NCBI GenBank assembly: GCA_025345505.1 | Contig: JANVCC010000106.1 | Location: 11,849,902 to 11,913,901 of the forward strand | Reading direction: 5' to 3' | DNA: 64,000 nucleotides | Source: Todiramphus chloris collaris | Taxonomy: Eukaryota; Chordata; Aves; Coraciiformes; Alcedinidae | Shown: positions 2,347-60,092 of the stretch, piece by piece | Layout: every line of letters begins with the position of its first letter | Numbering within the stretch: position 1 is the first letter of the stretch | Notes under the pieces: generated by a model | Databases searched by the model: none | Told to the model about the DNA's origin: nothing | What the model saw: the letters and a program-made list of their open reading frames with translations, nothing else | Translations under genes and position numbers: made by a program

Positions 2347-3405
2347 TAGAATCATAGAATTGTCAGAGTTGAAGGGACCTTAAAGATCATCTAGTTCCAA
2401 CCCCCCTGCCAATGGCAGGGACAGCTCCCACTACAGCAGGTTGCTCAGAGCCTCATCCAGCCTGGTCTTAAAAACTTCCAAGGATGGGGCTTCCACCGCC
2501 TCTCTGGGCAACCTGCGTCAGTGTCTCACAACCCTCATGGTGAAGAAATATTTCCTAATGTCTAACCTGAGTCGACATATCTCTAGTTTTAATCCATTCC
2601 CTCTAGTCCTATCAGTGCCCAACAGACTATAAAGTCCCTCCTCAGCTTTCTTGTAGGCCCCCCTTCTCTTTTCCAGACTGAACAACCCCAACTGTTTCAA
2701 TCTGTCCCCATAGGAGAGGTGCTCCAGCCTCGTGGCCCTTCCCTGGATATGTTCCAGCACATCCATATCCTTCTTGTAATAGGAACTCCAGTACTGGACA
2801 CAGTACTCCAGGTGAGGTGTCACAAGACACCTCAACCTGCTGGCCATACTTCTCTTGCTGCAGCCCAGGATATGATTGGCCCTCTGGGCTGCCAGAGTAC
2901 ACTGATGGCTCATGTTGAGTTTCTCATCCACCAGTACTCCCAAGTCCTTTTCTTCAGGGCTGCTCTCCAGCCAGTCACTGCCCAGCCTATATTGGTGCTT
3001 GGGATTGCTCTGACCCAGATGGAGGACCTTGCATTTGGCCTTGTTGAACTTCATGAGGTTGGCATAGGCCCTCTCCAGCCTGTCAAGGTCCCTGTGGATG
3101 GCATCCCTTCCCTCCAGCATGTCAGCTGCCCCACATAGCTTGGTGTCATTGACAAACTTGCTGAGGGTGCACTCAATGCTACTGTCCACGTCTCTGATGA
3201 AGATGTTAAACAAGACTGGTCCGAGTACGGATCCTTGAGGGTCTCCACTTGTCACTGGTCTCCACTTGGACATGGACCCATTGACAACCACTCTTTGTGA
3301 GTGGCCAACAAGCCAGTTCTTTATCCACTGAATTGTCCATCCATCAAATCCATATTTCACCGGCTTGGAGACCAGAATGTCATGTGGAAAAAACCTGAAG
3401 AACAT
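2347..3405 (-). mobile_element. CR1 LINE, 5'-truncated, antisense
   Basis: Read on the - strand, this is the second half of CR1 ORF2 followed by the 3' UTR, ending in the octamer tail, which appears on the + strand as 'agaatcatagaat' at 2347-2361. The 5' end is truncated inside the reverse transcriptase palm. It is one of only two CR1 copies in the window on the - strand. Confidence 0.93.
2518..3405 (-). pseudogene. CR1 ORF2 C-terminal half (RT palm to C-terminus), dead
   Basis: A 295-codon open frame covers the reverse-transcriptase palm and the C-terminal region of a CR1 ORF2. Visible motifs in order are the [13 protein letters not shown] block, the [10 protein letters not shown] block, the RDLDRLE region, [12 protein letters not shown], and the C-terminal [11 protein letters not shown] and [18 protein letters not shown] stretches. 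The catalytic (F/Y)ADD motif reads FVND, so the first of the two aspartates is an asparagine and the alanine is also changed. The copy lacks the endonuclease and the RT fingers. The frame is open, but the N-terminal truncation and lost active site make it a pseudogene. The first codon is only the first methionine in the truncated frame. Confidence 0.88.
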
Positions 3406-6400
3406 TGTGAAGATATTTATTCAAATGTGCTTTGGATAATAAGATTTTTTTTTTAGATATAACTAAATGCTAGATTGTTGATAAGATTATTTTTTCTTCT
3501 AGTAGTATCTGGTAATTATATATCTAAAATCATAGTTACAGATGTATTGCTTTATATCATTTAGGCATTTTTAAATGTTGAAATGCAGTCTGAATGTCTT
3601 CCGTCTTGTTTTCTGGATTGAGTCCTTCAGAACTTCTTTTTCTGAATACAAGAATCAAATGCCCACTTACATAGGTAATAAAGATATGGAATTTAACTTT
3701 CTAATGATACAGTTAATAAAAGTGATTAAAATTAATCACTGCAAATGGTATAATCACATTTTAATGCAGGTTTTGGGGTGTGTACTGTGTGTACTGTGGC
3801 TAGTGGCTAAAATATTCTACTCTCTCTACCTGTATGTTACCTGTATGTGATGAACACATTCAGTGTTCTTACAATGTAAATCATGGGTGTATTTGAGTAG
3901 CCCAGTACTTTTAAAGTTTCTACATGGAATTATCTTATCTCTTTCACCATAGCTCAAGCGCTTAGGAAAGTTTAATATCAGAATTTTAATATTTATATGC
4001 TTGATAATACAATTCCTTACATGAGTAATAAAAATGTGTGTATTCATCCAATGTATCATATTTAATAAGCATTATCATGATCAAAATCTGCTAGTACCAA
4101 AAAGAGTCCTTGCCAGGTCTTTCTTAATATTATTGACTTTCTAAAACAGTTGGATGTTCTCTGGAATGACCATCTTCAGAGAAGGGCCTGTCAGATTGAC
4201 GAGCACAAACTGATGAACACAGGTGGCTACAAATTATTAAATATCAAGGCAGCAGGAAACCATGGAGAAAAACCCAAAATTCAACATGCGCCTGTATAGA
4301 GAGATGGCATTTTTCCTCTGTATAAACTAAACTTCCCACCTTTATTCAAATGGACTGGTTTTGCCCATTTCTTTGTCTGGAAATGGCAAACCAAGTTGTC
4401 TTTTCTGATCTTAGTCTCTGTCAGGCAAATAGAGGGGAAAAGAAGGAGAATATTGTGCTATGAACCTGCACACACTGAGCCTTACAGTCCATGTGAGAGA
4501 TACAGGGTACCATGCCACTCAAGTGTGATGGGGGAATTCGGCAGTTTGCTATGGAATGTCATCTTCCTAACTCTGCAGGAGTATATGAAAAGAAAATACA
4601 ATGTTAAACTGATAAAAAAAGTTCTTTAGAATTAATTCCTTCTTGTAGGGAATAATCCTGGCCTGATCAAAAGTGAGTTCTTACTTCTTTTCACAAGTTT
4701 GATATTGCTGAAGTGGCACAATGGACCTTCAAGAGCTGACCATTCACTTTCTTAATTACAGCCAGGTCCTACCCTACAAGGCTTTGATTCTCCAGACCTA
4801 CAGAGACCTTTGCAGAGAAAAATACCCTGGTTCCTCTCCTCCCTCTCTGAGATATCTTGCCCTCTCATCCATCATGACATCCCCTGTTGCTGCACATCTT
4901 GGAGGCGTGGGAAAAGTAATGCCCATGTGGATTTAACAGGAACTACAGAGAGGCATCTCTGGAGACAGAGAAAAGGATCCTGGCATCACTGTTAATGTAT
5001 ATTATGGTGTCACCTGTAGCAAGGGAACTTTTGTGGTAAACCAGTCTGCAAGAACTGTGAGAACATACGGATTAGGATGGGCTTTTGGGACTCTGCAGCT
5101 CTGCCCTTACATGGCAGTGGCCATACTGGCTGACTTGCAGTGCTTGGGAGATCTCTGCCTGCTGCCTTACTGAATCTCTAAGGGGAATGCACTTTGTCTT
5201 AGAGGCATTTTAAAGTAGATGGCAGAGGTTTTTTCGGAGAAGGTGATAGAGGATTAATAATTCCATGTGAGGAATGACTGAGAGGTGAGTTGGGTATGGA
5301 GTGGGGGTGAGGGTGCTCTGGTGTAGAGATGAGTAGATGGAGACAGTCAAATCCAGAGAATTGCACAAAAGAAAGAAGTGACATTAAAATTTGTTAACTG
5401 CTGCCATGAAGAATGATAAATTCTTATTTTATTAAGTTTCCATTAGTTATATGCACATATTTCAATATGTGCAAAAGTACAAATCTATCACTTCCCATGT
5501 AGTATAATCCATACAAATTGTATCAGATAAATGTAATGAACATGTAGGATATTGTAATTTTAATTTTCAGTCTAACATGACTTTCATCTGCTTTTAGTAG
5601 AGGCTAAAAAGAAACTGGGCAACTTTAAGAGGAGCTTGACCATTTTGTTTGTAACAGTAATTAGATTATATGAAATCTTTTAATTAGAGAACTAATAATA
5701 GACATTCAAATTAGTTGAAGTGCAGGCTGAAACAGAAATAGGCACTGGATGTCTGATGAGTCTGAGGCATCAGACATCTGGGTGTTTATATATAGACCTT
5801 TGGAAAATCTTTAAGAAGAAGAAAGTAGTAGCATCTGTCTAAAGACAGAACGATGTTCAACCTTGTTTTTTAAATCCCTGTAATATAACTTGTCCTTTTA
5901 ACTCTCCTATTATTTAGGTAGAAAACTTCCATAAATGGCTGATTATATCTTTAAAGGCTGTATTTGCATCTTATTTTCATCTTTGCACTGACAATGTCAC
6001 ACTAAAATTGTCAACACAATTATAAGTAGAATAGAAGAAAGTTCAAATCCTTGCCTTATAAAAAAAGCTGTAAAATATGAACTTCCATTTAGTTTATTTT
6101 ATTGTTTTATATGTATATATAATCCTGTTCAGATGTCTGAAAGGAATTGTAAATAAAAGTGACAATTTATTGCAATGGAATAAGGGATAGGTTAGATTAA
6201 AAAAATAAAACAGGAAGAAAACGTAAGATATGAAATGTCAAAGAGTATGCGATAATCACCAAAAAATAATTTGCAGTAGTGAATTATAAAATCAGAAACA
6301 AGGAAAATGGTTTGCACAGTTATTCTGTAAACTTTTCATCATAATATGTGTAAAATGAAAATTTTGACTATTATCTAAATTGATTTTGGTATGATTTATG

Positions 6401-13277: not shown

Positions 13278-13752
13278 TGTAAGGTGTGGGTTTACCCTGG
13301 CTGGGCACCAGGTGCCCACCAAACCCTTCTATCACTCCCCCGCAACCTCCATCAGCACAGCATGCAGGGAGAGAATAAGATGAAAAAATAAAGAACCATG
13401 GCTTATAATAGATAAAGGTGTTATTCTCTACTTCCCGTCCACAGGTGATGTTGGGCTAAGTCCAGGAAGCAGGGCTCCAGAACATGTATCAGTTGCTCAG
13501 AGGACAAGCAAAAAACCCCCCCATCCTCCTCCTGCCCTCTCCCTTTATAGTTGAGCTGACGTCATATGGTATGGAATATCCAACTGGTCAAATCACGTTG
13601 GCTGTATCCCCTCCCCCATCTTGTCCCCCCATCCTCTGGTGCCGTGTGAGCACTGTCAATCATAACACGGCTGTGTTATCAACACCCTCCAGCTCCCAGT
13701 ACTGTAGCATGAAGGCTGTATGGGGAAAAGCAGCTCAGACAGACCCACTACA
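13278..13752 (-). repeat. 3' LTR of the ERVL-like provirus
   Basis: On the + strand it runs from a TGT-type edge near 13278-13285 to CCCACTACA at 13752, so the element-sense LTR begins TGTAGTGGG. It aligns along its whole length with the LTR at 24026-24500; by eye about 8 in 100 positions differ, most heavily in two short patches near 13507-13515 and 13590-13605. The ancestral promoter looks intact here: on the - strand a TATA box (CTATAAAG, 13550 to 13543) lies just downstream of a perfect palindromic TGACGTCA (13557-13564). The left edge is uncertain by about 7 bases because of a small local rearrangement ('tgtaaggtgtggg'). Confidence 0.88.
13543..13564 (-). promoter_or_regulatory. LTR core promoter: TATA box with adjacent CRE
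   Basis: The - strand reads TGACGTCA (a consensus cAMP-response element, 13564 to 13557), a 6-base spacer, then CTATAAAG (13550 to 13543). The equivalent site in the 5' LTR is TGACATCA (24303-24310), and in the solo LTRs it is decayed further (TGACACCA, TGGCATCA). The TATA box is kept in all four. CREB/ATF binding is a prediction from the motif only. Confidence 0.6.
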
Positions 13753-14161: not shown

Positions 14162-14944
14162 TTATCTTTCTGCCAAGGTCAAATCTCCTTGAGGTACACA
14201 CCGGGTCTCACCATCCTCCCTCATTACCCACCAGGTATATCCAGGTCCCTGAACAAAGACAATCCCACGAATGGGTTTGCCTTTTCCCAAGGTTCGAGCT
14301 ATCCACACTGTCTTCCCCAACCACCTCCCAGTGTGCACTACAGGGACCTTATCTCCTCCCACAACAGGCAGGGGTTTTGTTTGGGCAGGGCCAGGATGGC
14401 TAACAGGTCCTCTGGTGTTATCTAACCATGTAGCCTTTGCTAGATGGTTGTCCCATTCTTTAACTGTCTCACCCCCTAATGCTTTTAATGTGGTTTTTAA
14501 CAGCCCATTGTACCTTTCAATCTTCCCAGAGGCTTGTGCATGATAAGGGATGTGATGCACCCACTCAATGCCGTGCTCCGTGGCCCAGGCATCCATGAGA
14601 CTATTTTGGAAATGAGTTCCGCTGTCTGATTCAATTCTTTCTGGTGTACCGTGCCACCACAAAATCTGCTTCTCAAGGCCCAGGATGGTGTTCCGGGCAG
14701 TGGCATGGGGCACCGGGTACGTTTCCAGCCACCCAGTGGTTGCTTCCACCATTGTAAGTACGTGGCGCTTACCTTGGCAGGTTTGTGGGAGAGTGATGTA
14801 GTCAACCTGACAGGCCTCTCCATATTTATATTTTAGCCAACGTCCTCCATACCACTGGGGCTTTAATCTCTTGGCTTGTTTGATTGCAGCACATGTTTCA
14901 CATTTGTGGATAACCTCCATGATAGCCTCCATGGTCAGGTCCAC
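14162..14944 (-). pseudogene. pol: ERVL-like pol, integrase part
   Basis: A 260-codon open frame. It starts in the zinc-binding N-terminal domain (the CETC pair at residues 15 and 18) and runs through the catalytic core. The D,D-35-E triad is present: Asp48 in QVDYITL, Asp107 in ESDSGTHF, and Glu143 in GKIERYNG, with 35 residues between the last two. The C-terminal part has the Trp-rich, basic stretch expected of a retroviral integrase DNA-binding domain. It is separated by a single stop (near 14948) from the upstream frame that holds the His pair, and the two are in the same frame. The core alone looks undamaged, but no complete Gag-Pro-Pol frame leads into it. Confidence 0.88.
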
Positions 14945-14947
14945 CCC

Positions 14948-15363: not shown

Positions 15364-15932
15364 TTCTTCACACTAAGTGGATTCACCTTGTCCTCAGCAA
15401 ATCCAATGAATTGTTGTAGGTTACTCCACACAGCAGCCTTCCACTGTTGATGTTTTCCCACAATGCGACAAGACCCATCAGTGAACAGGGCGTATTGCTT
15501 TTCATCATCTGATAATGTGTTGTATGGTGGGGCCTCCTCAGCACGTTTCACCTCTACCTCTGGTGACATCCCAAAATCTTTGCCTTCTGGCCAGTTTGTG
15601 ATCACTTCCAGGATCCCTGGTCGACTGGGGTTCCCTATTCGAGCCCGTTGCGTTATCAATGCAATCCGCTTGCTCCGTGTGGCATCAGTTGCCTGGCGTG
15701 TAGATGAGACTCTCCCTTTGAACATCCATCCCAGCACTGGCAGTCGGGGTGCCAAGATGACCTGTGCTTCCATTCCCATCACTTCTGAGGCAGCTTGAAC
15801 TCCTTCATACGCCGACAGTATCTCCTTTTCCATTAGCATATAGTTGGCCTCTGTATCCTTGAGTCCAAAAACCCAGATGTCGTCCTCATGTCTCCCCGAG
15901 TGCCCTCTGCCAGAGGCTCTATGTAGGACCAT
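15360..15932 (-). pseudogene. pol: ERVL-like pol, RT connection and RNase H start
   Basis: A 190-codon open frame follows the RT frame after a frameshift near 15920-15932. It includes the RT connection region and the start of RNase H, with the catalytic-type Asp152 in LFTDGSCR followed by KHQQWKAAVW. Its order behind RT and ahead of integrase is the usual retroviral pol order. Confidence 0.8.
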
Positions 15933-17256
15933 TCTTCCCAGCTGCGCTGTAGAGTATGTTTTTGATAGTTAAACCTGTCCGGACTGGCCCAAGGGCTACA
16001 GCATGCACAATCTCCTGTTTAATTTGTTGAAAGGCCTGTTGCTGTTCAGGGCCCCATTGAAAGCCATTCTTCTTCCGGGTCACAGGGTAGAATGGGATCA
16101 CTATTAGACTGTGATCTGGAATATGCATTCTCCAGAAACCCACAGCACCCAGGAAAGTCTGTGTCTCCTTTTTGTTGGATGGTGGAGACATTGCTGTTAT
16201 CTTAATCATGTCCATTGGGATGTGTTGAAACCCATCCTGCCATTTTATTCTGAGGAACTGGATTTCCTGCACAGGCCACTTAACCTTGCTTCGCTTTATA
16301 GCAAAACCAACCTCCAGGAAGATTTGAATTATTTTCTCCCCTTTTTTGAAAACTTCTCCTGCTGTGTTGCCCCATACGATGTTGTCATCAATGTACTGGA
16401 GATGCTCCAGAGCCCCACCTTCCTCCAGTGCAGTATGGATCAGTCTGTGACGGATGGTGGGACTGTGTTTCCACCCCTCGGGCAATTGATTCCAGGTGCA
16501 CTGGGCACCCCTCCAGGTGAAGGCAAACTGTGGCCCGCACTCTGGTGCTATAGGAATAAAGAAAAATGTATTAGTGACGTACCACTTGGCTGCCTTGGAC
16601 TCCAGCTCATACTGAAGTTCTAGCATGTCTGGCACAGCAGCACTCAGCATAGGTGTAACTTCATTCAGACCACGATAGTCCACTGTCAATCTCCATTCTC
16701 CATTTGACTTTTGCACAGGCCATGTGGGGCTGTTGAAAGGTGAACGAGTTTTGTTTATCACCCGCTGGCTCTCCAGTTGATGAATCAATTCCTGGATAGG
16801 GATTGGGGAATCCCTTTTGGTACAATATTGATGCCAATGCACCATCATCATAGCCATTGGCACCAGCTGCTCTTCAACCTTCATCAGCCCCACTATAAAA
16901 GGGTTCTCTGAGAGACCTGGCAAGGTGGACAACTGTTCACTTCCCTCCACCTCCAAGGCAGCAACACCAAAAGCCCACCGGTATCCTTTTGGATCCTTGA
17001 AATAGACTCTCCTAAGATAGTCAACGCTGAGGATGCACGGGGCCTCTGGGCCAGTCACAATGGGGCGTTTATACCACTCCTTACCAGTCAGGCTCACTTC
17101 AGCCCCCAGTACCATCAGCTGCTGGGATCCCCCTGTCACCCTAGAAATGCTTATGGGCTCAACTTTTTTGAATGGCATTAAAATGCATTGTGCAACTGTA
17201 TCGACCAAGGCATTGTAGCTTTGTGGATCTGACATGCCAGGCCATCGGATCAACAC
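15919..17256 (-). pseudogene. pol: ERVL-like pol, protease and reverse transcriptase
   Basis: A 445-codon open frame. Near the N-terminus (residues 17-23) the sequence LVDTVAQ sits where a retroviral aspartic protease has D-T-G-A, so the flap-side glycine is replaced by valine and protease activity is doubtful. RT begins about residue 150, with WRLTVDYRGLN at 188-198 and the catalytic YIDD box at 288-291 intact. The motif A region reads WYVTNTFFFIPI, where the usual catalytic aspartate is not visible. A primer-grip/thumb region with FLGAVGFWRMHIPD follows. The long frame shows limited decay, but these two lesions suggest an inactive enzyme. The start is the first methionine in an open frame; the true protein would be part of a longer polyprotein. 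Confidence 0.88.
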
Positions 17257-17411
17257 AGTCCACTAGATCTGATTGTCCCTTTACTCCACCTGGCTAGAGG
17301 CAGGGCTTCTCTATTCCTGTTTCTGGTCAGAATATTCACAGTCTGACCCTTGCTGTGTCAAACCGGAAGCCCCTTGTCAGGCTCAGTGGAGGTGATTTTA
17401 GTCTTCACATA

Positions 17412-17623
17412 TCATTGATTGCCTTCTTGTGTTTTGACACTGACTACATTAATGGTCTTCTTGGATGGCCCCTTTTTAATGGTTTTCTTCCTTTTCAATT
17501 CCTGTACGCATGCTTCCAGCTTAAAGGTAGGTTCACTATCCCACTTCCTCAGGTCCTCCCCCTGGTCACGCAGAAAGAACCAGAGTGCACCAAGTGGCAT
17601 ACGCCTGGGGCTCCCTTTCCCTC
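17412..17623 (-). pseudogene. gag: ERVL-like gag, 3' part (downstream of the insertion)
   Basis: The last part of the provirus gag frame, with an ALWFFLRDQGEDLRKW stretch and a Lys-rich tail ending at 17412. It lies in a different frame from the protease/RT frame that follows about 155 bases later. The longer open frame running on to 17903 is only part gag: upstream of 17623 it reads into the inserted LTR. The gag frame here is in exact register with the gag frame at 22724 and above once the insertion and one 5-bp duplication are discounted. Confidence 0.75.
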
Positions 17624-18249
17624 TGTCTTTGTTTGAAAGACAGGTGTCTGCCAAGGAAGGCAGGAGCCCCCCTTGGAATGGAAATGCAATCCCCTCCCCT
17701 CCGAATGCTTGTAATTTTGAAATTAAGGGGCTTTCAGGCAAAGATATGAGGAATAGGTATAACCGTTCTTTACTGAATATATATATATAACAAGGCAAAC
17801 AAACAACAATAACTATGGTAGTAACAGCAAACAGCGCCAGGAACCCAGTCTCACCCTCACGGGTGGCTCCCGGTGAGCAGGGAGGGCGCGATGGTCTCCC
17901 CACCGCTCTGGAGCCAGCTCAGGCCTCACGTGGCAATGGCCGACGGAAAGAACCCACAGCGAGATAGTGGCACCGGCAACAGCAAGCTCCGCTGCCAAGT
18001 ACCGCGCTTTTTTTCCCTCCTTTTTCAAGGTTTTGAGGTGGACTGGAGTTCCCTGGCCCAGGGAAGGCCCAGGCAAGGGAGAGAGACCCTCTCGCGAGTG
18101 AATCCGAGAGGGCTACGTGGCTGGGGGCGTTCCCGGGCAGCCCGCGGCAGATTTAAACACGGCGAACCCTGTAGCAGTGCTCAGACCCACAGTGAGATAG
18201 CTAGCTTTCTCGCTTGTTGGCGTGTGGCTAGCAGGGCGTGGGGGGGAGG
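17624..18249 (-). repeat. Left arm of inserted LTR plus GC-rich segment of uncertain origin
   Basis: 17624-17900 is LTR-like on the - strand (see the enclosing element). From about 17870 to 18250 the DNA is markedly GC- and CpG-rich, unlike the rest of the window. It could be more of the LTR or the 5' UTR/promoter of the CR1 that follows. A 16-base motif, acccacagYgagatag, occurs twice, at 17952-17967 and 18185-18200, with one mismatch. A perfect 7-bp inverted repeat (TGTCTTT/AAAGACA) sits at the left tip, 17624-17642. Confidence 0.5.
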
Positions 18250-18346
18250 GGCACAAAAAGATAAAAGAAAAAAAAACAAACCAAAAACCACAATAAAGAA
18301 AAACCAATCAAAAAAACCCAAATAGAAACCCCAAAACCAAACAGCA

Positions 18347-19422
18347 ATGGTTGTGACTGGGGCTAAAGCTCCTGCAAAGAAGAACATGGTGACACAGACA
18401 GAGGCCCTTCAGAAGCACACTGGTGTCCAAGTCTCCAGATGCAGTGAGTGATGGAGTCTGGCACTGCTGGTGGAGGCTGATGGGGGTCACTCCTGTGCCC
18501 GGTGTGACCAGGTAGATGATCTGCTCAGCCTGGTGGCTGAGCTAAAGGAGGACGCTGAAAGGCTGAGAACAGTAAGGGAGTGTGAGAGGGAAATAGACTG
18601 GTGGAGTCAGGCCCTGCCATCCTTGAGGACAGAGCAGGTGGAGGCTCCTTTAGGAGAGGAACCTCTAGTCTCTTGCTGCCAGGTAAATGAAGAAAACTCA
18701 AGAAACAAGGGGGAATGGAAACAGGTCCCTGCTTGGCGAGGTAGGCAAACCCCATCTCAGCCTCCCTCCCCTTCCCCTTCTTGGTTGTCCCTGCAAAACC
18801 GGTATGGGGCTCTGGAATTAGAGGGACAAACAAATGATGATGGGGATGAAGGTCCATCAGAGGAGTCATCCAGGGCTAATCAGTCTCCCCCATGCATTGT
18901 TTCAAGTTCTAAAAAGAAGAAAAGGAGGGTAATTGTAATGGGTGACTCCCTTCTCAGAGGAACTGAGGGCCCCATATGCAGGCCAGATCCACACCACAGG
19001 GAGGTCTGCTGCCTCCCTGGGGCCAGGGTCAGAGATATTACAAGGAAACTTCCCAGTCTGGTAGGGCCATCAGATTACTATCCCTTATTGGTTATTCAGA
19101 TTGGTAATGATGCCGCAGCGGGAAGCCTCAAAACAATTAAAAAAGACTTCAGGGCCCTGGGGAGATCGCTTGAGGGCTCAGGAACCCAAGTGGTGTTCTC
19201 TGCCATTCCTTCAGTGGCAGGGAGTGATCCTGAAAGAGGCAGGAAGAGATTAATATGTGGCTGAGACGCTGGTGCCACCAACAGAATTTTGGGTTTTTTG
19301 AACATGGGGAGCTTTATGCTGCACGGGGTCTGCAGGGAACAAATGGAGTTCATCTGTCTCCAAGGGGGAAAAGAATTCTTGCATATGAGCTGGCTGGGCT
19401 CATTGAGAGGGCTTTAAACTAG
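18347..19422 (+). pseudogene. CR1 ORF1 (nucleic-acid-binding / esterase-like protein), two lesions
   Basis: Starts at the ATG at 18347 (MVVTGAKAPAKKN). The first lesion is a TGA at 18449-18451 at codon 35. The same frame then stays open from 18452 to about 19245. It shows a CARCDQVDDL segment that is the end of a Cys-rich, zinc-finger-like region, an acidic/coiled section, a Lys-rich patch (SSKKKKRR), then RVIVMGDSLLRGTEG, the GDSL-type nucleophile block of the SGNH esterase-like domain of CR1 ORF1. A frameshift near 19245-19255 ends the frame at 19264. The next frame continues the domain (INMWLRRWCHQQNFGFF) to the natural TAG at 19420-19422. Total about 358 codons, normal for CR1 ORF1. Role in CR1: RNA binding and, by homology, lipid-esterase-like activity. 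Confidence 0.85.
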
Positions 19423-19484
19423 GTCCGAAGGGGGAAGGGGATAAAACTGGACCTGCCAAAGTTGAGCAAAAGGGTGGCAGGTCA

Positions 19485-22203
19485 TTGTTGGGCAAGAAGT
19501 CACTAGCCCGGCTCAAGTGCATCTACACAAATGCACAAAGCATGGGCAACAAACGGGAGGAGCTGGAAGCCATTGTGAAGCGCGTCCGCTATGATGTAGT
19601 CGCCATTGCAGAAACATGGTGGGATGACTCTCATGAGTGGAGTTCTGCAATGGATGGCTATAAGCTCTGTAAGTGGAATAGGCAAGATAGAAAGGGCGGT
19701 GGTGTGGCTCTCTATGTTAAAGAGTGTTTTGAATGTATAGAAGTTAGTAAGTGTGATGGACCAGTTGAATGTTTATGGGTTAAGTTGAGGAAGGCCAACG
19801 AGGTAGATATCCTGCTGGGGGTCTGTTATAGACCACCCAACCAGGATGAAGAGGCTGATGAATTATTCTATGGACAACTGGCAGAAGCCACTAAATCGCA
19901 AGACCTTGTTCTTGTGGGAGATCTCAACTTGCCAGACATCTGCTGGAAATATAACACAGCAGACAGGAAACAGTCCAGGAGGTTCCTGGACTGTGTGGAA
20001 GATAACTTCCTGACTCAGCTGATAAGTGAGCCCACCAGGGGAGGTGCCTTGCTGGACTTGTTGCTCACAAACAGAGAGGGACTGGTGGGTAATGTGGTGG
20101 TCGGAGGCTGTCTTGGGCTTAGTGACCATGAAATGATAGAATTTTCAATTCTTGCCCAAGTAAGGAGGGGAAGCAGCAGGACTATTACCATGGACTTCCG
20201 AAGGTCAGACTTCAACCTGTTTAGGACACTGCTTGAGAAAGTCCCTTGGAGTACAGTCCTAGAGGGCAAGGGGGTCCAGGAAGGCTGGACTGTTTTTAAA
20301 CAGGAACTCTTAAAGGCCCAGGAGCAGGCTGTCCCCATGTGTCATAAGACGAACTGGCAGGGAAAACGACCGGCCTGGCTAAATGGGGAGCTTCTGGCAG
20401 AACTTAGGAGGAAGAGGAGAGTCTACCACCTTTGGAAGAAGGGACAGGCTACTGAAGAAGAGTACAGGGATTTAGTTAGGTTGTGTAGGAAGAATATTAG
20501 GGGGGCAAAAGCTCAACTAGAACTCAGCCTGGCCACCGCTGCAAGAGACAAGAAAAAGAGTTTTTACAAATATATTAATAACAAAAAAAGAACTAGGGAG
20601 AATCTCCATCCCTTACTGGATGCAAGGGGGAACATTGTTATCAAGGATGAGGAAAAGGCTGAGGTACTTAATGCCTTCTTTGCCTCAGTCCTTAATAGTC
20701 AGTCTGGTTATCCTCATGGCATTCAATCCCCTGAACTGGAAGATAGGGATGGAGACCAGAACAGTCCCCTCATAATCCAGGAAGTGGTAGTTAATGATCT
20801 TCTAAGCCAACTGGAAACTCACAAGTCTATGGGGCCAGATGGGATCCACCCGAGACTGCTGAGGGAATTGGCAGTGGAACTTACCAAGCCTCTCTCCATC
20901 ATTTATCAGCGATCCTGGTCAGCTGGGGAGGTCCCAGATGACTGGAGACTTGCCAATGTGACACCCATCTATAAGAAGGGCAGGAAGGATGATTCAGGGA
21001 ACTACAGGCCTGTCAGCCTGACCTCGGTCCCGGGAAAGATTATGGAACAGTTCATCTTGAGGGTGATCACACAGCAAGTGCAGGACAATGGGCGGATCAG
21101 GCCTGATCTTCTTCTATGATCAGGTGACCTGCCTAGTGGATGAGGGCAAGGTGGTGGATATTGTCTACCTGGACTTCAGGAAGGCATTTGACACTGTTTC
21201 CCACAGCATTCTGCTGGAGAAGCTGGCAGGTCATGGCATAGACAGGAGGACTCTTCGCTGGATTAGAAACTGGCTGGATGGCCGAGCCCAGAGGGTGGTG
21301 GTGAACGGAGTAAAATCCAGTTGACGACCAGTCACAAGCGGTGTCCCTCAGGGCTCAATTTTGGGACCCATCTTGTTTAATATATTCATCAATGACCTGG
21401 ATGAGGGAATTGAATGTACCCTCAGTAAATTTGCAAACGACACAAAATTAAGAGAAAGTGTCCATCTGCTTGAGGGTACGAAGGCTCTGCAGCGGGATCT
21501 GGACAGGCTGGAGAGATGGGCTGAGCTCAATTGTATGGAGTTTAACAAAGCCAAGTGCCAGGTCATGCACTTCGGTCACAACAACCCCCAGCAACGCTCC
21601 AGGCTTGGGGAGGAGTGGCTGGAGAGCTGCCTGGGGAAAAGGACCTGGGGGTGTTGGTCAATAGCCGGCTGAACATGAGCCAGCAGTGTGCCCAGGTGGC
21701 CAAGAGGGCCAATGGCATCCTGGCCTGGATCAGAAACGGTGTGACCAGTAGGAGTAGGGAGGTGATCGTACCCCTATACTCGGCACTTGTGAGACCACAT
21801 CTTGAGTACTGTGTCCAGTTTTGGTCACCACAGTACAGAAGGGACATCGAGGTGCTGGAGCAAGTGCAGAGACAGACAACAAAGCTGGTGAAAGGGCTGG
21901 AAAGCATTGCCCTATGAAGAGCGGCTGAGGGAACTGGGTTTGTTTAGTCTGGAAAAGAGGAGGCTGAGAGGAGACCTTATTGCCCTCTACAACTACCTAA
22001 AAGGAGGTTGTAGAGAAGCTGGTGTTGGTCTCTTCTCTCAAATTAGTAATGATAGGACAAGGGGGAATGGGCTCAAGTTGCACCAGGGGAGGTTTATATT
22101 AGATATTAGGAGGAAATTCTTCACTGAGAGAGTGGTTAGGCACTGGAACAGGCTGCCCGGGGAGGTGGTGGAGTCACCATCCCTGGAGGTGTTTAAAGAA
22201 TGA
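19485..22203 (+). pseudogene. CR1 ORF2 (AP endonuclease and reverse transcriptase), broken
   Basis: The first 544 codons are open (19485-21119). They hold a complete apurinic-type endonuclease with IYTNAQS, VAIAETWWDD, VGDLNLPD and LSDHEMIEF motifs, then the linker and RT fingers (NVTPIYKKG, NYRPVSLTSVPGKIM). No ATG opens the frame; the first in-frame start-like codon is TTG. Near 21103 about 40 bases are missing, shifting the frame. The palm continues at 21088-21324 (VYLDFRKAFDTVSH), then a TGA at 21322-21324 where CR1 usually has Trp, then [12 protein letters not shown] and SKFANDTKL. The catalytic ADD box reads AND, so RT would be dead even without frameshifts. Further shifts occur near 21630 and 21907. 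The C-terminal region ends near 22203. Confidence 0.9.
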
Positions 22204-22308
22204 TTAGATGTGGAGCTTGAGGATATGGTTAGATAAATGCTAGGACAAAGGTTGGACTTGATGACCCTGGAGGTCCTTTCCAGCCATAATGATTCTATGA
22301 TTCTATGA

Positions 22309-22723
22309 ACCCGCATCACAAACCCTCCTGGGCAGCCAATCCTGGTGTCCAGCAGGATCCCCGGGAGACAGCAGGGGCAGAAGGAGAAGCAGGAGACGCA
22401 GCAATGGCGACCTCTCTCCAAGCTGATCCTGGTGTCCAGCAGGATCCTCGGGAGGCAGCAGGGGTAGAAGGAGAGCAGGAGATGCAGTGGGGATGGGTTC
22501 TCTTCTCCAGGAGGGCAGCTTCTCCTCCCCTCCAATGCAGGGAGAAAAACAAGAGCCCTAGGGGCTCCACCCAACCCCCTTTATTCGTCTGGCTGGACCC
22601 CTCCCCCTATGGCCAGGTCCTTTTGTCTCTCTTAAGTACAGCAATTTACATCCTTGACAAACAAGTATGGAAAAATTCTTTAAGAGAAGAAGGAAAACAG
22701 AATAGCTCCCCAAAACCCCAATA
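22309..22723 (-). repeat. Right arm of inserted LTR, with AATAAA and an 87-bp tandem repeat
   Basis: Lies between the CR1 tail and the right copy of the CCCTC duplication. On the - strand it begins TATTGGGG and carries AATAAAGGGGG at 22585-22575, a plausible polyadenylation signal. At 22339-22500 an 87-base unit starting atcctggtgtccagcaggat is repeated about 1.8 times. GC content is high in the repeat half and low in the 22600-22700 half. The open frames across it (to 178 codons) are read-through of the tandem repeat and the CR1 antisense, not genes. Confidence 0.55.
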
Positions 22724-23877
22724 CCCTCTGACTGACTGATTCCTTGGGGCACTCCTGATATCTGAGGTGCTAGCCCTTAGGGACGTGGAAGTGCCAAGAC
22801 TCTTTTCAAAGTTCTGAAGCCAGGAAGAGACAGTTTCCACAGTTGAGTTATCCATGTGTGGATAGTGTATTGCTTCCAAGCTGGAAGAATATGATGCTGG
22901 TGCGTTCTTGATCACTTTCCTCCACATGGCCCTTGAACACTGAACATCCTCTGGATCTTTGGGATGGTCATCATTATCTGAATTTCCATAGATAACTTTC
23001 AGTACTGCTAGTTCCCTCACGTACTGGTCAGCAGTAGACCACTTTCCTGAGGAAGTGGATTTCATTACATCTTCCTTAAATGGATATCTTGCTTTAACAC
23101 TTGAGACATCTCCAGAGACTGCAAATTGCTGCCTCTTTTCCAATTCCTCTTTCAATGCCATGATTCCTAGGAAGGGAGCCCAGCTGTTGTGCTTCCTTAC
23201 CTTCCAGCTGTTGGGTATCAGCCCCAGTATCCCAGCATCGAAGCAACCAGGTAACAATCCGTTCACCTATCTGGCGGCTGTAATCTTTCCTCATGTTTTG
23301 AAGTTCTGATGAAGTCAAGGACCAGGTGATTTCTGCTTCCTGTTTCAGTTCTGTTACTCCCTCCTCCAACCTTTCTGTTGAGGGCCCATCTTGTTGGTCG
23401 AGTGTTTCCTCTTCTTCCTCATCCCTCACTAATCAAGGGTAGAGACCTGTTGGTCTCGTTGTCCACTGCTTCTTTTTTACTACTGGGGCAATACAGTCCC
23501 TATCTCAACCCGGGTGTCTTCAGATGTAGTTTGGGTCCCTGCCTCAACCACAGTCCTCTGAGAATACTCAACTGTGGCTCGATAGGCACAGGCCAGGCCC
23601 CAGTACAGCACTAAGAGCTGCTGTTTTTCATTGGGGTAGAAAAGGCACCCTTCTATTAGATGTTGTGTCAGTTTGCCAGGGTTGCTTGCCTGTTCGGGGG
23701 AAAGTCCCAGGCTACAGGATTTGATAACTGTCCTAGGAACCTGCCCAAATCCTGCCAGACCCCTTGCCACCGAGGGACAGGCCGTCTCAGGGCACATTTC
23801 ATTTCCCGAGTCCCTTCATCCTCGCCATATAGAAGCTTCCCCAGCACATTGAGGCTATCAGTATAGAAGTAAAGCAA
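22724..23877 (-). pseudogene. gag: ERVL-like gag, 5' part (upstream of the insertion)
   Basis: Several overlapping - strand frames from 23877 down to 22724 make up the first, larger part of the provirus gag: 23668-23877, 23480-23797, 23094-23429, and the frame from 23266 into the insertion. The frame changes show at least two or three indels. Recognisable as gag by position (between primer-binding site and pol), by acidic and Gln/Glu-rich stretches, and by a helical-looking Trp-rich segment (ERIVTWLLRCWDTGA). I see no CCHC zinc knuckle. The last frame runs into the insertion at codon boundary 22724, which helps prove the nest. Confidence 0.7.
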
Positions 23878-24025: not shown

Positions 24026-24500
24026 TGTGGTGGGTTCACCCTGGCTGGGCACCAGGTGCCCACCAAGCCCTTCTATCACTCCCCCGCAACCTCCGTCAGC
24101 ACAGCATGCAGGGAGAGAATAAGATGGAAAAAAATAAAGAACCATGGCTTATAATAGATAAAGATGTTATTCTCTACTTCCTGTCCACAGGCGATGTTGG
24201 GCCGAGTCCTGGAAGCAGGGCTCCAGAACATGTATCAGTTGCTCAGAGGACAAGCTTAATGACCCCCCATCTTCCTCCTGCCCTCTCCCTTTATATTTGA
24301 GCTGACATCATATGGTATGGGATATCCCACTGGTCAGGTCAGGTCAGCTGTATCCCCCCTCCCTGCATCTTGTCCCCCCATCCTCTGGTGCCGTGTGAGC
24401 ACTGTCAGTCATAACAGGGGTGTGTTATCAACACCCTCCAGCTCCCAGTGCTGCAGCATGAGGGGTGTATAGGGAAAATCAGCTCAGCCAGACCCACTAT
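24026..24500 (-). repeat. 5' LTR of the ERVL-like provirus
   Basis: On the + strand TGTGGTGGGTTCACC at 24026 runs to about CCCACTAT at 24500. The homologous 3' LTR ends CCCACTACA, so the last bases here are changed. TATA box on the - strand at about 24295-24289 (ATATAAAG); the adjacent CRE-like site is TGACATCA (24303-24310), one base off the palindrome. The block catatggtatgg followed by atatcc is shared with all related LTRs in the window. Confidence 0.88.
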
Positions 24501-27500
24501 GTACTGAATGCCCTGAAAAGTGAGCAGTGGAGTGAAGCTCTGGCATCTGCCAAAGTGACGTTTCTCAGTGTAGAAGATGGGAGATAGTGTAAAATTATCA
24601 GTAAGGACTTTGTTGTCCAAAATCTGAGACTGGTTGAGAAATAGAGAATTCCTGTGAAGAATTCATCCTTCAATGGAGCCAAGATGAGAGCTGGCAGCTC
24701 TAACAGCCTTTCTGCTACTTGTGTGCCAAGGGTATCTGACTTTTATTTGAACTACTTGAATGAAAAAAATTCTTCAATAGCAAGTTGAAATATTAATTGC
24801 TGAAATGTAGGTATGTAGGTATGACAGCAACTACCTCCTGTAATGTGTATTTATAGTGTACATTTTGTTATACTGTGCTAGTGTTTATAAAGTACATTGA
24901 AATCTGTAGCTGAAAGGTGTATGAATGCAAGAAATAGTTATTGTTACATATATAAAAGAACAAAATTTTTCTTCCAGTAGCCTTTCCTCAAGGGGAAATT
25001 TAATTTCTTTATCTGCAATAATTTTATTGTGTCTCTTGAGATTGGAATGTGAGGTATTTAAAGTTGTTTTAAATAAGAGGGAGACTCTCTCTGTAATCTA
25101 TTAAAACCAGACACATGTGCTTATACCTTATCTTTTCTGGACATTTAGCTATACACACATAGAGAATGAATCTCTTTCAAATTCTTAGGTGACTTCTGGT
25201 TTTCTCTCAATGAGAAGAAATACCTTTTGCCTCTCTATTTAAGATATTCCCTTCACACATTTGATTTGTTTCAGGATGTACTTATTTGCATTTGCTTTTC
25301 CCTAGTTTAGGGTTACCAGTCTTATTTATGAAGAAAGTACTTCACATGTCAAAGTTCAATAACCAAATTTATAATACAGTAATAGCTGCACAATAATAAT
25401 AGCTGCATTTGTGTTACATCAGACAAGTTGCAGTCCTAACATTCTAAATGTACACTATTAATTCAGCTATTCATGTAAAATGATATGGCTTCAGGAAGGT
25501 GCATCTCAGCCCTTCTAAAGAAGAAAAAAAATTCCTGATGCACTTATGGGTGGATGTTTAAAATTGCTTGTACTCAGCCATAGGAAACATTAAGCTCAGT
25601 AATTTAATACAATTATTAAAATTAATTTATGTGAAAGAAATGTTTTGGCTTAGGATATATGACAACAAAAACATAGTTTTTGTCAATATGTCTGGGTTTT
25701 GTCTCATAAAAAGATATAGCAATAACACTGTATAGTGTCTTTGAAAGTATTTTAACTTATTAACAGCAGCAGTGAGATGTGAAACTGTTACAGCTCATTT
25801 GAGTGGTTTACCACTGGGCAAATGTTTGGTAATTATTGCACTTGGAAGAATTAAATGGATAATTTGAATGGAAGTGATAGTTCTTCAGTGAATTCCCTTT
25901 TTACATCAGTTGTAGCATATGTCCACATGAACTTCCTGAGGTGGTTTCTCTTGTGTTTTGAATGTGAAGTGTTAAAATCCATGAGGAGAGACCTGTAGTT
26001 GACCTTTCATGCTAAATGTGATAGGGCTGTTGTAGTATTTAAAAGGCTTTTGTGCTTCTGGAACTCCTGGGAAGCTCTAGTTACCTTCAGACTGGATCAA
26101 CTGTTTCAGGTGTGAAGCATCAGTCATGCAGAGTAACTTTTAAATATTTTTAATGGTGATGGCTGCCATTTAGGATAAGTTGAATATGAAAACATCTGTT
26201 TGTGCATGCAACACATGTGGCTTTATGGTCCATCCTATCTCTTTCCTATTTGCTCAGGAGTGAAAATCTCCAATTCCTATGATTTGTCTCTATTCAAAGT
26301 CTTTCTATCTAGTCTCTCTGTATTTAAACTCCTGATAACAAGATTGATGCAAACTGTATAAATGTCCAATACAAAAATTCTGTAGCCATTATACAGACTT
26401 CAGCCTTTCATGTCATACAGAGTTCTGACTAGACCTTTGCATTTGGTTAATCCTGGTGCTTGTGTCAAAACATGTGGTAAGATTTTCAGATTCTACAGAG
26501 AGGTGGTCAAATGTCAGCCTGTGATCTTGATTTAAATGGCAAAGCAATGTTCTCTGTATTTTCAAAGATTACATTTCTGATAGCTTGTTTTATTCTTTCC
26601 AGAAATCTCTGTTTTCTTGGTTTTCTCTCATCTCTTTGGGAAAGAACTATGCAAACCTAGGTCTGAATGGCATTATGGTTGGTTGGTCAGGCAGTGCAGG
26701 GTCCTGGCACATTGCTTTGTGTTTGGTCGATGTCAGTAGAACTATCAAATAGAATTCAGTGGGATCCTGAAAATTCCCAAGTTAAAGTGTTGAAGGTGAA
26801 CTGATCTGGGTACTCATAGCTTAGATGGTCTTAAAGGAAAAACATGCTGTTCTATGCAGGAGAAACATATTGAGAGTTACAATACAGAAATACACCTGTG
26901 TAGTGCATAGAAATACATAGAAACCACACCTGTCTGAGGAATTCCCTGCCATTGTTAAAGGGAAGTATCACTCCACAATTGCTCCTGTTTTACATTCTGT
27001 TTATCAGAGACAGTTTATGGAGCTCAGCAGATGACCTTGTCTGGTCTCTGGTACAGCTGTTGTTAAAGAAGATGAATAGTTTAAAAAATCCAATTTAATT
27101 ACTGCATTTATTGTACTTGATCTTATATGTACTTGGTATAACAACTATTACCTAGTTACTATCTTCCTTCATTTAAAAAAAGAAAAAATAGAAAGAAAAA
27201 GGGATATAATTGCACTGGTGTTAGTTTGACCTCTGGTGTATGTAAAAGAATGCAAGACAGAGAAGATTTTTTTCGAAGAAAGTTTTTGAAAGTAAAACTT
27301 CATTAGGAATGAGATGTCTAAACCACAGACATTGTTTTGAAATTGTGAGTTCTAATATTTGTAGAAAAACTATCTGGATTATAGCAATTAGCACTGATTG
27401 TGGGAATATGGCAGGCAGAGACACGTGAGCAGATGTAGTAGGTGAAGAGAGATGTTCCATACTTCAAAAGAGATTGTAAAAACAGAGGAAAAAAATATAA

Positions 27501-29331
27501 AAGTAGGAAGTATATATTACTAATATAATTTCCCATTTGCACTGGGATAAAATAAGCATTTACCTTTTAATATTAATGTAGTCATATTTATGGTAACAGG
27601 CTTTGTTATTATACTTTCTGGTCTAATGACTCTATTTGAATAGTTAAAGTCATATTGTGAATATTTTAGATGGAAAATTTCAGTGCTTGCTCAGTCTTCA
27701 CTCTGTTGTTTGAAGAAAGAGAATTTCGTTATTTATTAACTTAAGAATAAGAGCTACTCCTGAAGTATGTCCGCTTTCAATTTTCTAAAATACTAGACTA
27801 TACTCAAGTCCTCTAAGTAGTCATTGTCTTTAGCAAGGACCCAAGGATGTCATTCAAAATCCTTGATTCAGAAAGCTTACAATGCAGCAGCAGTCTAATC
27901 ATCAGGAAGTGCATCACTGTTTCTTACACCAGTCTTATTATCACTTATTTCTTCTGTTAACAGTTTGCATTTGCAAAAATGAGGGACAGCAGCCATTGTA
28001 AAACAGAGTAAATGATACCCATGAAACTGAAGTGGTTTAGTGCTTTAGGAAACCAATTTCAGAGTGCTTATAGGTTATCTTCCAAATAAGTGGACCCTAG
28101 AATGTGTATTTTATTCTGTCTTAAGAAATGAAATAATGAATGGGAAGTATTCTGTCAAATTTACAGTCAAGAGAGACAAACCTACAATAAAGCAGGGTAT
28201 CTTTGTCTTAAAAGTAAGAAAGCTATTTTTGTCTTCTCTTGGAGCTTAAGTATAAGGAAAAATGCCTTTATAGAATTCCTAAAATGCTGGAAAAGGTGAC
28301 TGTATTTTTACAAGTGTATAAATGCTAAAATAATGAAACTATCCAAGTCTCCTAGAAACTTTTCTCACTACTTTAAATATATCATCAAAACAACACTTAA
28401 ATAAAATTAACACTGGAAAAAAAAGAAGTGTGAACTGTAGAGCCTACAATCATCAAATAAGAAAATAAAAGCTCAGGGTTTCCTGCCTGATCTCACTGTT
28501 TTTCACACTTATTTACTTTTCCCTCTTAGAAATGTACAAGTGAAAGGTTTGGCTTGGTGACAATGCTTCAGTCCTCCTAGAATATATTTGGTGATGGTTA
28601 AGAATGAAAAGAATTAAATTATTTCTTGGTGCTTGCTTGCCTTTAGCTCCAGCTTGGTACTTGTACTAGTTTGCTTCTAGCTGTTCTCTACACAAAGTAA
28701 AATGTTTCCTGGCATGTGTTGTCTCTATTTCTGTCATGTGGGGCTAGGAACTGGTGTTGAAAAAAACAATCTAATTCTCTCTACCTCCTGGAATTTCCTT
28801 CCTACAATGAGCCATCCTTAAAGGCCAGCTGTGCCCAACCATATAGCTGTTTCACAGAAAAATAATAGCTTAAAGCCACTTGTGTCAAGGCCAAAAATCA
28901 GGGCCTGTGAATTTATTAAAGTGTATTGCTATGGTAGACTCTGAAATTTTTTTTTATATGAACAAGATTATAGATAACATAACAAAAATTAATTACTTTG
29001 AAGATGACAGAAAGCTTTACATGTAGGTAGCTAACACCATATTTAGTATTTTTTATGTTTGTGTTCCAGTCAAACAGTGCAGTGACCAGCCTAATCTGCA
29101 GCAGGCATTTATATATTCCATTATTCCCTATAGTACAATAAAGCCCCTTATTTATGGCAAGCATTAATTTTGTAGTCACAGTGACAGAATTCATATCTTA
29201 GCAGTGCATCAAAGTCTTCCTTCCCTCCTTGTAATAGTTATCCCTGAAATTGTCTCATTCTTCTGTTGTCAGACTTGAAAATATGGTACATTTTTCAGAG
29301 TTATGAAGAAGGCTCTTGGCCTGTGGTGGTT
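24501..29331. other. Unannotated AT-rich DNA
   Basis: 4.8 kb without a recognised gene or repeat. Contains short A/T- and purine-rich patches only (for example 27175-27210). Presumably intronic or intergenic. Confidence 0.45.
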
Positions 29332-29918
29332 TGATTGTGGCTGGACACCAGGTGCCCACCAAGGTTCTCTTCACTCCCACCTCCTCCTCCTCTCACCTGG
29401 GCCAAGGGGGAAGAAAATAAGATGAAATTCATAGGTTAAGACAAAGGCAGTTTAATGGAAAGCAAAGCAAATCAAGGCTCTGCATGTGGAAGCAAAAGAA
29501 AACAAGATTTATTCTCTACTTCCCATCAGCAGGCGGTGCCCTTTTCTGGGAAGCAGGGCTCCAAACCTGTAGTGGTTGCTCTGGAGGACAAGCTGATGCC
29601 CTCCTCCCCCATCTCTCACCCCCTCCCCCCGCCTCCTTTGCCTAGCTTTTATAGTTCAACTGACACCATATGGTATGGAATATCCCTTTAGTCGGTTTGG
29701 GTCAGCTGTCCCAGGTGTATCCCCTCACAAGATCTTGTCCACCCCATCCTGCTGTGGGGGGAATGTTGGAAAACCAGCCTTGGTGCTGTGCGATCCCTGC
29801 CCAGTGGTAGTCACAACACGGGTGTGTTATCAGCACCTTTCTTGCTCTTAGTGAAAAGTACAGAACTGTGAGGGCTGTTACAGGGAACATTAACTCAAAC
29901 TCAGTCAGACCCAATATA
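29332..29918 (-). mobile_element. Solo LTR of the same ERVL-like family, diverged subtype
   Basis: On the + strand TGTGGTGGTTTG at 29332 runs to CCCAATATA at 29918. It is flanked by a perfect 5-bp duplication TGGCC (29327-29331 and 29919-29923). It shares the ggacaccaggtgcccaccaa block, the tctctacttcc block, the - strand TATA box (about 29654-29645), catatggtatggaatatcc and the gggtgtgttatcagcacc block with the provirus LTRs. At 587 bp it is longer than the others, with extra sequence at about 29400-29510, and it is clearly more diverged. No internal retroviral sequence follows, so it is a product of LTR-LTR recombination. Confidence 0.9.
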
Positions 29919-33178: not shown

Positions 33179-33256
33179 TTTGTTTTGTTTTGTTTTTGTT
33201 TGTTTGGTTTTTTGTTTTTGTTTTTTTTTTGTTTTTGTTTTTGTTTTTTGTTTTTC
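33179..33256. repeat. G/T-rich tract merging into a 3' splice site
   Basis: TTTTG and TTTG units with long T runs, ending about 15 bases before the exon at 33272. It is the same class of tract as others in the window, but here it blends into the pyrimidine-rich tract of the splice acceptor (tttttccttcctgtgttacag). Confidence 0.8.
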
Positions 33257-33271
33257 CTTCCTGTGTTACAG

Positions 33272-33477
33272 ATATACGCGGACTGCAGGGATTTCTTGAT
33301 CAGGCCTCAAGACTGGGACTTGATGTATCATTACAAAAAGTGGACAGGAACATCAGCAGAGTCTTTGCCAACCTTTTCTCTACCATGAAAACAGAAGAAC
33401 TGAACCGCTATCGGGACACATTGCGAAGGGCTATCTTACTCCTAAGCCCAAGGGGAGCCCAAACTTTTATTAATGAG
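33272..33477 (+). CDS. Internal exon of an unidentified host gene
   Basis: A 206-bp segment bounded by a strong acceptor (pyrimidine-rich, ending cctgtgttacag) and a consensus donor (gag|gtcagt). Only one of three + frames is open right across it, giving 68 complete codons. It begins with two bases of a split codon and ends on a codon boundary, so the exon is phase 1 to phase 0. The peptide is soluble-looking and amphipathic, with no signal or membrane segment: it includes [20 protein letters not shown], then [14 protein letters not shown], then [18 protein letters not shown]. The Leu/Arg/Lys spacing suggests helices. Normal amino-acid variety and frame conservation set it apart from every other short frame in non-repeat DNA here. 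I do not recognise the protein and assign no function. Other exons of the gene must lie outside the window or be too short to see. Confidence 0.65.
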
Positions 33478-35394
33478 GTCAGTGCACAGTTGTTTTTATC
33501 ATCAATATTTCAGGAACATATATAGGGACTTAATGTGGTACATTGCCATGTTTTCTCAAGTGGTAGATTTTGACAGTGCTGGTTGCTAAATGTCAAATAA
33601 GATTGTCAGAATCTAGTGCCAGAGAATTGAAATATCAGGTACTCTGTGTTGTGGTTAATGCAAATGAGAGCACATGGGCCAGATCGGCACTTTCAGTGTA
33701 GCTCTATGGGGCAATTTAATTTTTTTTCTGATTGTATTTCCTACCAGTACTTTTAACCTGGATTTCAACCACCATTGACAAATGACCAGGAAATCTACTC
33801 AAGTCTATTAGAAATGAAATATAATGTGCCTGAGAGAGTCTCCAAATTAATACTGAAAGGGCATGTTATTGATATTTGAAAGATGAATCACACAGTTTCT
33901 TCTTATCAAGTATGAAGTAGGAATTATATGTTTTGTCTTTTTTTCTTAACGCTTTCTTGAAATTAACATGGATAATTAGGGCAGGGAGGTAGCTGTTGGG
34001 TAAACTTGTAATTAATATTGTGCTGTTGGCTAATTTTTGGCAGTAATTAGTTTTTTACAGCTTTTTGAATATTAAGTAATGAATTATTTTACAGTGCTTT
34101 GTATGTCAGAGTTGAGAATGAGAATTGGATCCTCGGTGTAAGTTTATATCTGTTCATTAGCTAAGAATTTGGCAATGAAGTAAGTTTTTACTGTGGTTTT
34201 TTTTTTTTTTTTTAGTTTTGATTAATTCATATTTTATAGCAGAGGAAAAATGTCTGAAAAACTTCAACTAGATCATATAACAGTCTATTGACTAATAACA
34301 TATCTTCAGAATAAAACAATTGTTGCCCACAAACCCTCCTGTGGAATGAAGAACAAAAATAAGAGACTTTCTTGAACCCTGATTTGAATGGGATTAACAA
34401 TTTTTTCTTAGCACAAGACATAGATGTCAGCCATTGGAAGCTGGTACAAGGTTTATTTTCTCTGTTTCAATATTGCAAGTGATACATTTTTACTGGTAAA
34501 AATATGGATCCAGATGTCAGCCTCACTTGTCAGTTCTTGGGTGGGCCAGAGAGATCTCATCTGCCATTGGATACACAGGGTTAGGAGACTCTAATATCTC
34601 ATATGTGAAATATTTTCTAAATCCTAGAACTACTCAATTTTAAGATTATTTCTTTAATTTTTTTTAAGCATCAATTTCACTTTACTGGCTTAACATCCTT
34701 AATACCTGGTTCTGTCATGTGTCAAACTTACTGAAGCAGAAATTACCAACATTTCATAAGTTTTCAAGGTTTATTATTCTGCTACAAAATTGCTTTGACT
34801 GTAAGAATAAATGGAGGGAGAGAGGAAAAAAAATATTTTCAATGGTATGGATAGAAATATGAAATCAGCCTTTATCCAAAAAACAGAAGGTAAATGCATT
34901 TATAACATGTTACCTAAACTAGGTTTTACAGTAAAAGGTCACTTTGGGATTAAAGCAAGCCTAATCTAAAGAAAGTGTGTCTCTCCTTAATCATTTTGAG
35001 AAAAATGTGCTCTTCTCTACATACAAAAATCCCTGATATACTTGGACTGGTGCCATTGTTCAGTTTATATGAAAACCCAGTCTTAATTGTAACAGGTAGG
35101 CATGCAACAGCAAAAATTATTTTTGTAGTTTGAAGATTATATGCTCTCCTAGCAAGGCAGTATATAGAAAGAAAAAGAAGAAAAGCAAATAATTTGGAAA
35201 TGGGAAGGAGATTTATTACTTTTAGATATTCTGTTAGGCTCTTTGGCCTGGACATAGCATCTGAGACTCAAAAGGCTCTCTCCTTACCAGAGATCTCACA
35301 TACCTCTTCCACCTACAAATGTATGCATTTCTTTGGATGCAGGTAGAGGTATATTTGTATGGATTGCTTTTATTATTAAGTGCTCTACACTACA
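33478..35394. other. Probable intron downstream of the exon
   Basis: Starts with the gtcagt donor. AT-rich, with a poly-T run at about 34196-34215. No second exon seen. Confidence 0.5.
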
Positions 35395-40916: not shown

Positions 40917-41113
40917 CAGATATAAAGGATTTTAAGATATTTATGGAAATTTTGTTATACCTAGAGGTACATGAAGAAGGAGAAAGAAGGTTGACACTAA
41001 GGCCAGAATATTAAAAGTCTGTCACAGGGTAGAACAAGACTCATCAGCATGTGAATGGTAGTGGAATTTTCACTACTTTGCTTGCTGGATGAAGTTAGTG
41101 TAAAGAGAGGAGG

Positions 41114-55074: not shown

Positions 55075-55187
55075 TATGACAAAAATGTTCTTCTCTGTGC
55101 TATGAGGCAAAAAACCTAACAGCTCAAAGGCTGCTTTCTCTAGATTATTTGTGGCTCACTGTATTTTTATTACATCTTGTTATATTC

Positions 55188-59965: not shown

Positions 59966-60092
59966 GTTATAGAGGTGGTTAGATGTTGTACTTAGGGACA
60001 TGGTTTAGTGGTTTTTGCTAGGGCTAGGAATAAGGTTGTACTTGAGGATCTTGGAGGTCTCTTCCAGACAAAACTGTTCTATGATTCTATGT
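58836..60092 (+). mobile_element. CR1 LINE inserted in another CR1 (inner copy)
   Basis: A 1.26-kb 5'-truncated CR1 of a different subfamily. It begins in the region just ahead of the RT palm (QHMQDKKGIRPSQHGFMKGR), so that region is present twice, in diverged versions, on the two sides of 58836. It ends with its own 3' UTR (aggttgtacttgaggatctt) and tail gttctatgattctatg at 60091. The outer CR1 resumes one or two bases later. No target-site duplication is evident. Closest to the fragment at 55188-55591. Confidence 0.85.

Follow-up and report, generated by a model that had tools for sequence, protein, structure and literature searches.

The long interruption in an endogenous retrovirus within the 64,000-nucleotide stretch of DNA analysed here (the window) is best explained by a chain of ordinary insertions, in which an ERVL-type provirus was entered by a second ERVL-type provirus, now a solo LTR, and the latter was entered in turn by a CR1 element. 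We put the probability of this reading at roughly 0.95. It draws on the boundaries of the three layers in the window and on searches of the same genome (1.17 Gb, 889 contigs), in which each layer was seen elsewhere without the next one; the order provirus, LTR element, CR1 proposed in a first-pass annotation of this DNA is thereby borne out. The features that make up the nest are the following.

13282..13752, minus strand: 3' LTR of the host provirus (ends placed to within a few bases)
14165..14947, minus strand: integrase region of the host provirus (Pfam rve, E 6.5e-14)
15922..17262, minus strand: reverse transcriptase region of the host provirus (Pfam RVT_1, E 1.6e-11)
17412..17623, minus strand: downstream part of the host gag reading frame, starting at the break and including the stop codon
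17619..17623: target-site duplication CCCTC, left copy
17624..17950, minus strand: second part of the solo LTR, ending in ACA
17951..22309, plus strand: nearly full-length CR1 (edges placed to within a few bases)
18452..19264, plus strand: CR1 ORF1, an open frame of 270 aa (from the open-frame listing)
19407..21119, plus strand: endonuclease part of CR1 ORF2, open to the stop at 21117 (Pfam Exo_endo_phos, E 6.9e-16)
21325..22203, plus strand: reverse transcriptase part of CR1 ORF2, broken, in several frames (Pfam RVT_1, E 1.3e-11 at 21325-21669)
22292..22307, plus strand: CR1 3' octamer tail, two ATTCTATG units
22310..22723, minus strand: first part of the solo LTR (its terminal TG reads TA)
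22724..22728: target-site duplication CCCTC, right copy
22724..23266, minus strand: upstream part of the host gag reading frame, ending at the break
24026..24501, minus strand: 5' LTR of the host provirus (ends placed to within a few bases)

The host provirus and the break in its gag

The outermost layer is bounded by two LTRs that align at 24030-24499 and 13286-13750 with 91.5% identity (BLAST alignment). Reverse transcriptase and integrase regions both lie between them, as an ERVL-type provirus requires, and the leader carries, after the 5' LTR on the minus strand, a primer-binding-site-like stretch, TTGGCACCCAACATGGGGC, which we take to be of the tRNA-Lys type. A foamy-virus-like integrase is expected in class III (ERVL-type) elements, and the best virus-named matches of the host integrase are to foamy virus (PFV) integrases, the strongest of these with E 6.4e-15; the eight best matches of solved structure are all labelled integrase or PFV integrase, with lentiviral ones at about 1e-6 to 1e-5. 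No clear repeat that might be the target duplication of the provirus itself was recognisable in its outer flanks, and the flank at 24502-25000 has itself as its sole match in the genome. Elsewhere in the window, a solo LTR of the host family lies at 41,110-41,550 (about 79% identity, with GGAGG on both sides), and a more diverged LTR-like stretch at 29,321-29,750 is about 68-74% identical to host-family LTRs.

The gag reading frame of this provirus is interrupted from 17624 to 22723, and the interruption is flanked by CCCTC on both sides, just as the first-pass annotation had reported; the match extends to seven bases, CCCTCTG. When the two gag pieces were searched separately in 24 other loci fetched from the same genome, they were found to overlap by one codon in 22 and to be adjacent in one (L016), the second part not being found in the remaining locus (L014). 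The uninterrupted state of the host gag is therefore present in other copies. The one-codon overlap is accounted for by the 5-bp duplication, both copies of which encode the same glycine codon in the window. Host-type LTR sequence was found beside gag in 21 of the 24 loci, though not in L017, L025 and L028.

It had also been claimed that the two gag parts are in register across the break. The minus-strand codon phase is indeed equal at 22729 and 17624, but this agreement holds only near the break. Within the frame at 22724-23266, gag residues up to about 54 and those from about 55 onward fall in two different frames in 13 of the 24 relatives, which indicates that the host gag frame is shifted near 23,100 relative to those copies; a single alignment spans both parts in ten others, and L021 is ambiguous. 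The local register is no proof that gag was intact when the second element inserted.

The family to which the host belongs appears to be abundant. For the gag piece at 22724-23266 at least 151 genomic matches were listed, one of them the piece itself, after 150 of the 1524 first-look candidates had been scored. Most of these 151 are 79-85% identical to the window piece, and many share the same score and have long open frames. These properties of the listed matches suggest a large, apparently young subfamily with recent activity in this lineage. Against a large protein collection gag gave a single match, with 61% identity over 67% of the query; neither gag piece had a Pfam match, and the one compared with NCBIfam had none there. 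In one of the relatives, L022 (at 1974-2036), the gag copy breaks off and is followed by the first ~60 bases of the LTR family that forms the second layer of our nest. That break lies about 80 bases further along gag than the break in the window, and L022 is apparently an independent insertion of this LTR family into gag.

A single LTR split by a CR1

The sequence on either side of the CR1 had been described as LTR-like arms, with the left arm ending at 17900. Both arms are LTR sequence, and the left one extends further, to about 17950. They do not represent two LTRs, but the halves of one solo LTR divided by the CR1, since the left arm (to 17950) is joined directly to the right arm (from 22310) in 24 of the 27 other copies examined in the genome. 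The three exceptions are L002, with 9 extra bases, L004, with 148 extra bases, and L049, which has no right arm. An origin of the arms from two different LTRs was also considered and dropped, since other copies join them.

A search with the initial 227 bases of the left arm gave at least 39 copies besides the window, at 93-96% identity (40 of 1170 candidates scored). Both ends could be placed in 26 copies, which measure 613-745 bases. Their ends are of the TG..CA type: all 26 have TGT at one end, and 17 have ACA at the opposite end, where the window copy and L008 show ATA instead. Exact 5-bp duplications flank eight of the 26, and in four more (including L004, with its odd right end) four of the five duplication bases are equal. 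The lengths form two groups, about 613-658 and 710-745 bases. Inside the window LTR a repeat of about 60 bases recurs at a spacing of 87 (from 22334 and from 22421, within 22,334-22,487), and it seems to be missing from the shorter copies.

These properties of the LTR family bear on the proposal that the arms are unrelated repeats and that the inserted piece arose by rearrangement or an assembly join. Although there is no clear repeat of one arm in the other, which would fit such an origin, the arms are the two halves of one element in the continuous copies, and CCCTC has the same length as the duplications of the LTR family, which argues against a rearrangement of unrelated repeats. We therefore consider this proposal hardly credible.

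The second layer belongs, as its relatives show, to an ERVL-type family related to the host provirus but distinct from it. The LTRs of L005 and L007 are followed, on the minus strand, by a stretch resembling a primer-binding site, which places the window LTR on that strand too, like the host. The integrase beside the LTR in L006 is 67.5% identical to the host integrase, and a short piece in L008 is 72% identical. The gag sequence found beside the LTR matches host gag only in part, with identities of 33% and 37% for the pieces in L005 and 36% for that in L007, and in L002-L004 no integrase or gag match to the host provirus was found beside the LTR. A single LTR with no interior sequence is present at our locus, and we therefore take it to be a solo LTR.

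Between the two LTR parts lies a plus-strand CR1 with its own octamer tail, as the first-pass annotation had it. The element carries endonuclease, reverse transcriptase and two terminal ATTCTATG units. Its ORF1 gave no match in Pfam at E 0.1 and none in NCBIfam. ORF2 is broken by the stop at 21117 and a TGA at 21322, and the open frame changes within 21546-21672 and again within 21892-21917. Most CR1 copies are 5'-truncated; the nested one, unlike them, is nearly full length. With its first 501 bases as query, at least 43 other rows in the genome matched (40 of 155 candidates scored, some rows being second pieces of one copy), and in 34 of them the match begins with the first or second base of the query. 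CTCAG stands just upstream of the corresponding start position in 17 of the 24 copies fetched, so the window CR1 lacks at least about 5 bases of the family 5' end. Where the CR1 inserted, L008 has GAAAG beside CCCGC and other LTR copies are similar, whereas the window has AACCC at both edges of the CR1; this AACCC may be a chance microhomology. The window holds further CR1 copies, about 65-75% identical to the nested one, at 2,346-3,420, 46,769-47,303, 55,186-55,597 and 58,507-61,295, the last of which is apparently two CR1s in tandem (58,507-60,091 and 60,158-61,295).

Order and age of the insertions

According to the preferred reading, the history of the locus began with the minus-strand integration of the first ERVL-type provirus. 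A related but distinct ERVL-type provirus, of a kind that makes 5-bp target duplications, then entered its gag, likewise on the minus strand, and at some time recombination between the two LTRs of the second provirus would have removed its interior to leave the solo LTR. Finally, a nearly full-length CR1 inserted into this LTR on the plus strand. Target-primed reverse transcription is the established insertion route for CR1-like elements, and we suspect that it was also used here, with no clear target duplication resulting.

The sequence keeps no record of whether the solo LTR formed before or after the CR1 arrived. The CR1 might have inserted into one LTR of a still complete second provirus, whose interior was only later removed by LTR-LTR recombination. 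The recombinant would in that case have had to retain the CR1-bearing part, and a CR1 that entered a solo LTR already in place makes for a simpler history, so we regard the later loss of the interior as the less likely course, if one to be taken seriously.

A more radical departure would be that the LTR already bore the CR1 when it integrated and that the second and third layers moved together. The LTR copies that are uninterrupted at the CR1 site speak against such joint movement, and the three remaining copies have only their 9 or 148 extra bases or want the right arm. No supporting copy was found among the 27 (40 scored, from 1170 first-look candidates). Coming from the other side, the LTR left arm does not occur within the fetched flank of any of the 24 other CR1 5' ends. 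Among the 75 loci examined from outside the window, 27 match the LTR left arm and 24 match the first 501 bases of the CR1, but none matches both. Of the 79 loci examined in all, the exact 18-base LTR-CR1 junction occurs in L001 and L055 alone, both of which come from the window itself. Joint movement is therefore very improbable, and separate insertion of the CR1 into the LTR remains our reading. One of the LTR copies, L002, carries a different CR1 piece, 70% alike, some 660 bases from the LTR.

Estimates of divergence are similar for all three layers. The host LTR pair differs by a K2P distance of 0.083 over 460 sites, corresponding to a K/2 of 0.042 (5-95% 0.030-0.053). For the inserted LTR, the terminal branches of the two arms are 0.042 and 0.043 (bootstrap medians 0.035 and 0.044; 5-95% ranges 0.017-0.060 and 0.024-0.061), and the CR1 branch is 0.037 (bootstrap median 0.033; 5-95% 0.026-0.041). 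The LTR trees were built from 21 of the 27 copies, with L049 excluded for its absent right arm and L002, L004, L034, L038 and L051 for odd ends or extra sequence; the CR1 tree used 20 of the 24 copies, L058, L059, L065 and L079 having too short a match. The LTR and CR1 trees behind the point estimates were computed with the gamma option and the bootstrap trees without it.

The point divergences fit the nesting order from host to CR1, and their 5-95% intervals overlap. Dating by divergence as a means of ordering the layers was accordingly set aside as too coarse; the order of insertion follows from the nesting alone, and the divergences lend it no independent support. A neutral rate of about 2e-9 per site per year would put all three layers near 20 million years, which is a rough figure. 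The near-equal divergences of 0.037-0.043 substitutions per site might be taken to mean that two ERVL-type lineages and the CR1 subfamily were active together in this bird lineage during a single short period, and that members of one ERVL family entered the gag of the other on more than one occasion (in the window and in L022), an idea that we find doubtful. The first-pass annotation had suggested that the locus could calibrate when the three families were active. A single locus with overlapping divergence estimates cannot do so alone.

The locus and known avian repeats

An exon-like open frame at about 33,244-33,480 on the plus strand matches glutamate receptor delta-1 (GRID1) with an E value of 4.2e-34. 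From this match we infer that the nested locus is intronic in GRID1 or borders one of its introns, and that the provirus is antisense to it. The abundance of CR1s and the size of the genome are in keeping with a bird, as the first-pass annotation took it to be. The nest at GRID1 offers a usable presence/absence marker for related birds and, as a clean, well-bounded nested insertion of unambiguous order, one usable entry in a transposition-in-transposition (TinT) table. It is real and well explained, and it is of an ordinary kind that reveals no new type of element or mechanism.

Nested transposons are common in birds and already in use as a dating tool. The available portion of one study describes the TinT method applied to 1,978 nested CR1s in chicken (PMC2169234), and that of the duck genome paper describes nested young repeats and names a TinT analysis in its list of supplementary figures (PMC7787181). 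As far as these portions go, the nests in both papers are like ours in that younger elements lie in older ones and give a relative order of activity, and they differ from ours in that the hosts here are LTR elements.

The individual layers can likewise be set beside known kinds of element. In the accessible part of a paper that deals with avian LTR elements (PMC6523648), target duplications are given as 5 bp for ERV3/ERVL, 4 for ERV1 and 6 for ERV2, and ATTCTRTG is given as the mark of the CR1 3' end. The family of the inserted LTR resembles avian ERVL-type (ERV3, class III) elements, of which many are solo LTRs, in its 5-bp duplications, TG..CA-type ends and solo copies; the host provirus resembles them in its foamy-virus-like integrase, and the tail of the nested CR1 carries the octamer mark. 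In the excerpt of PMC2169234, CR1s are reported to show no target duplication; the nested copy has no clear one, but does have AACCC at both edges. Full-length CR1 copies are found across birds according to the corresponding excerpt of PMC8665684, and the nested copy is like the CR1 LINE described there in its ORF1, its ORF2 with endonuclease and reverse transcriptase, its octamer tail and, if the AACCC at its edges is chance microhomology, its lack of a clear target duplication. By the terms used in that excerpt it would count as 'full-length' but, with its broken ORF2, not as 'intact'.
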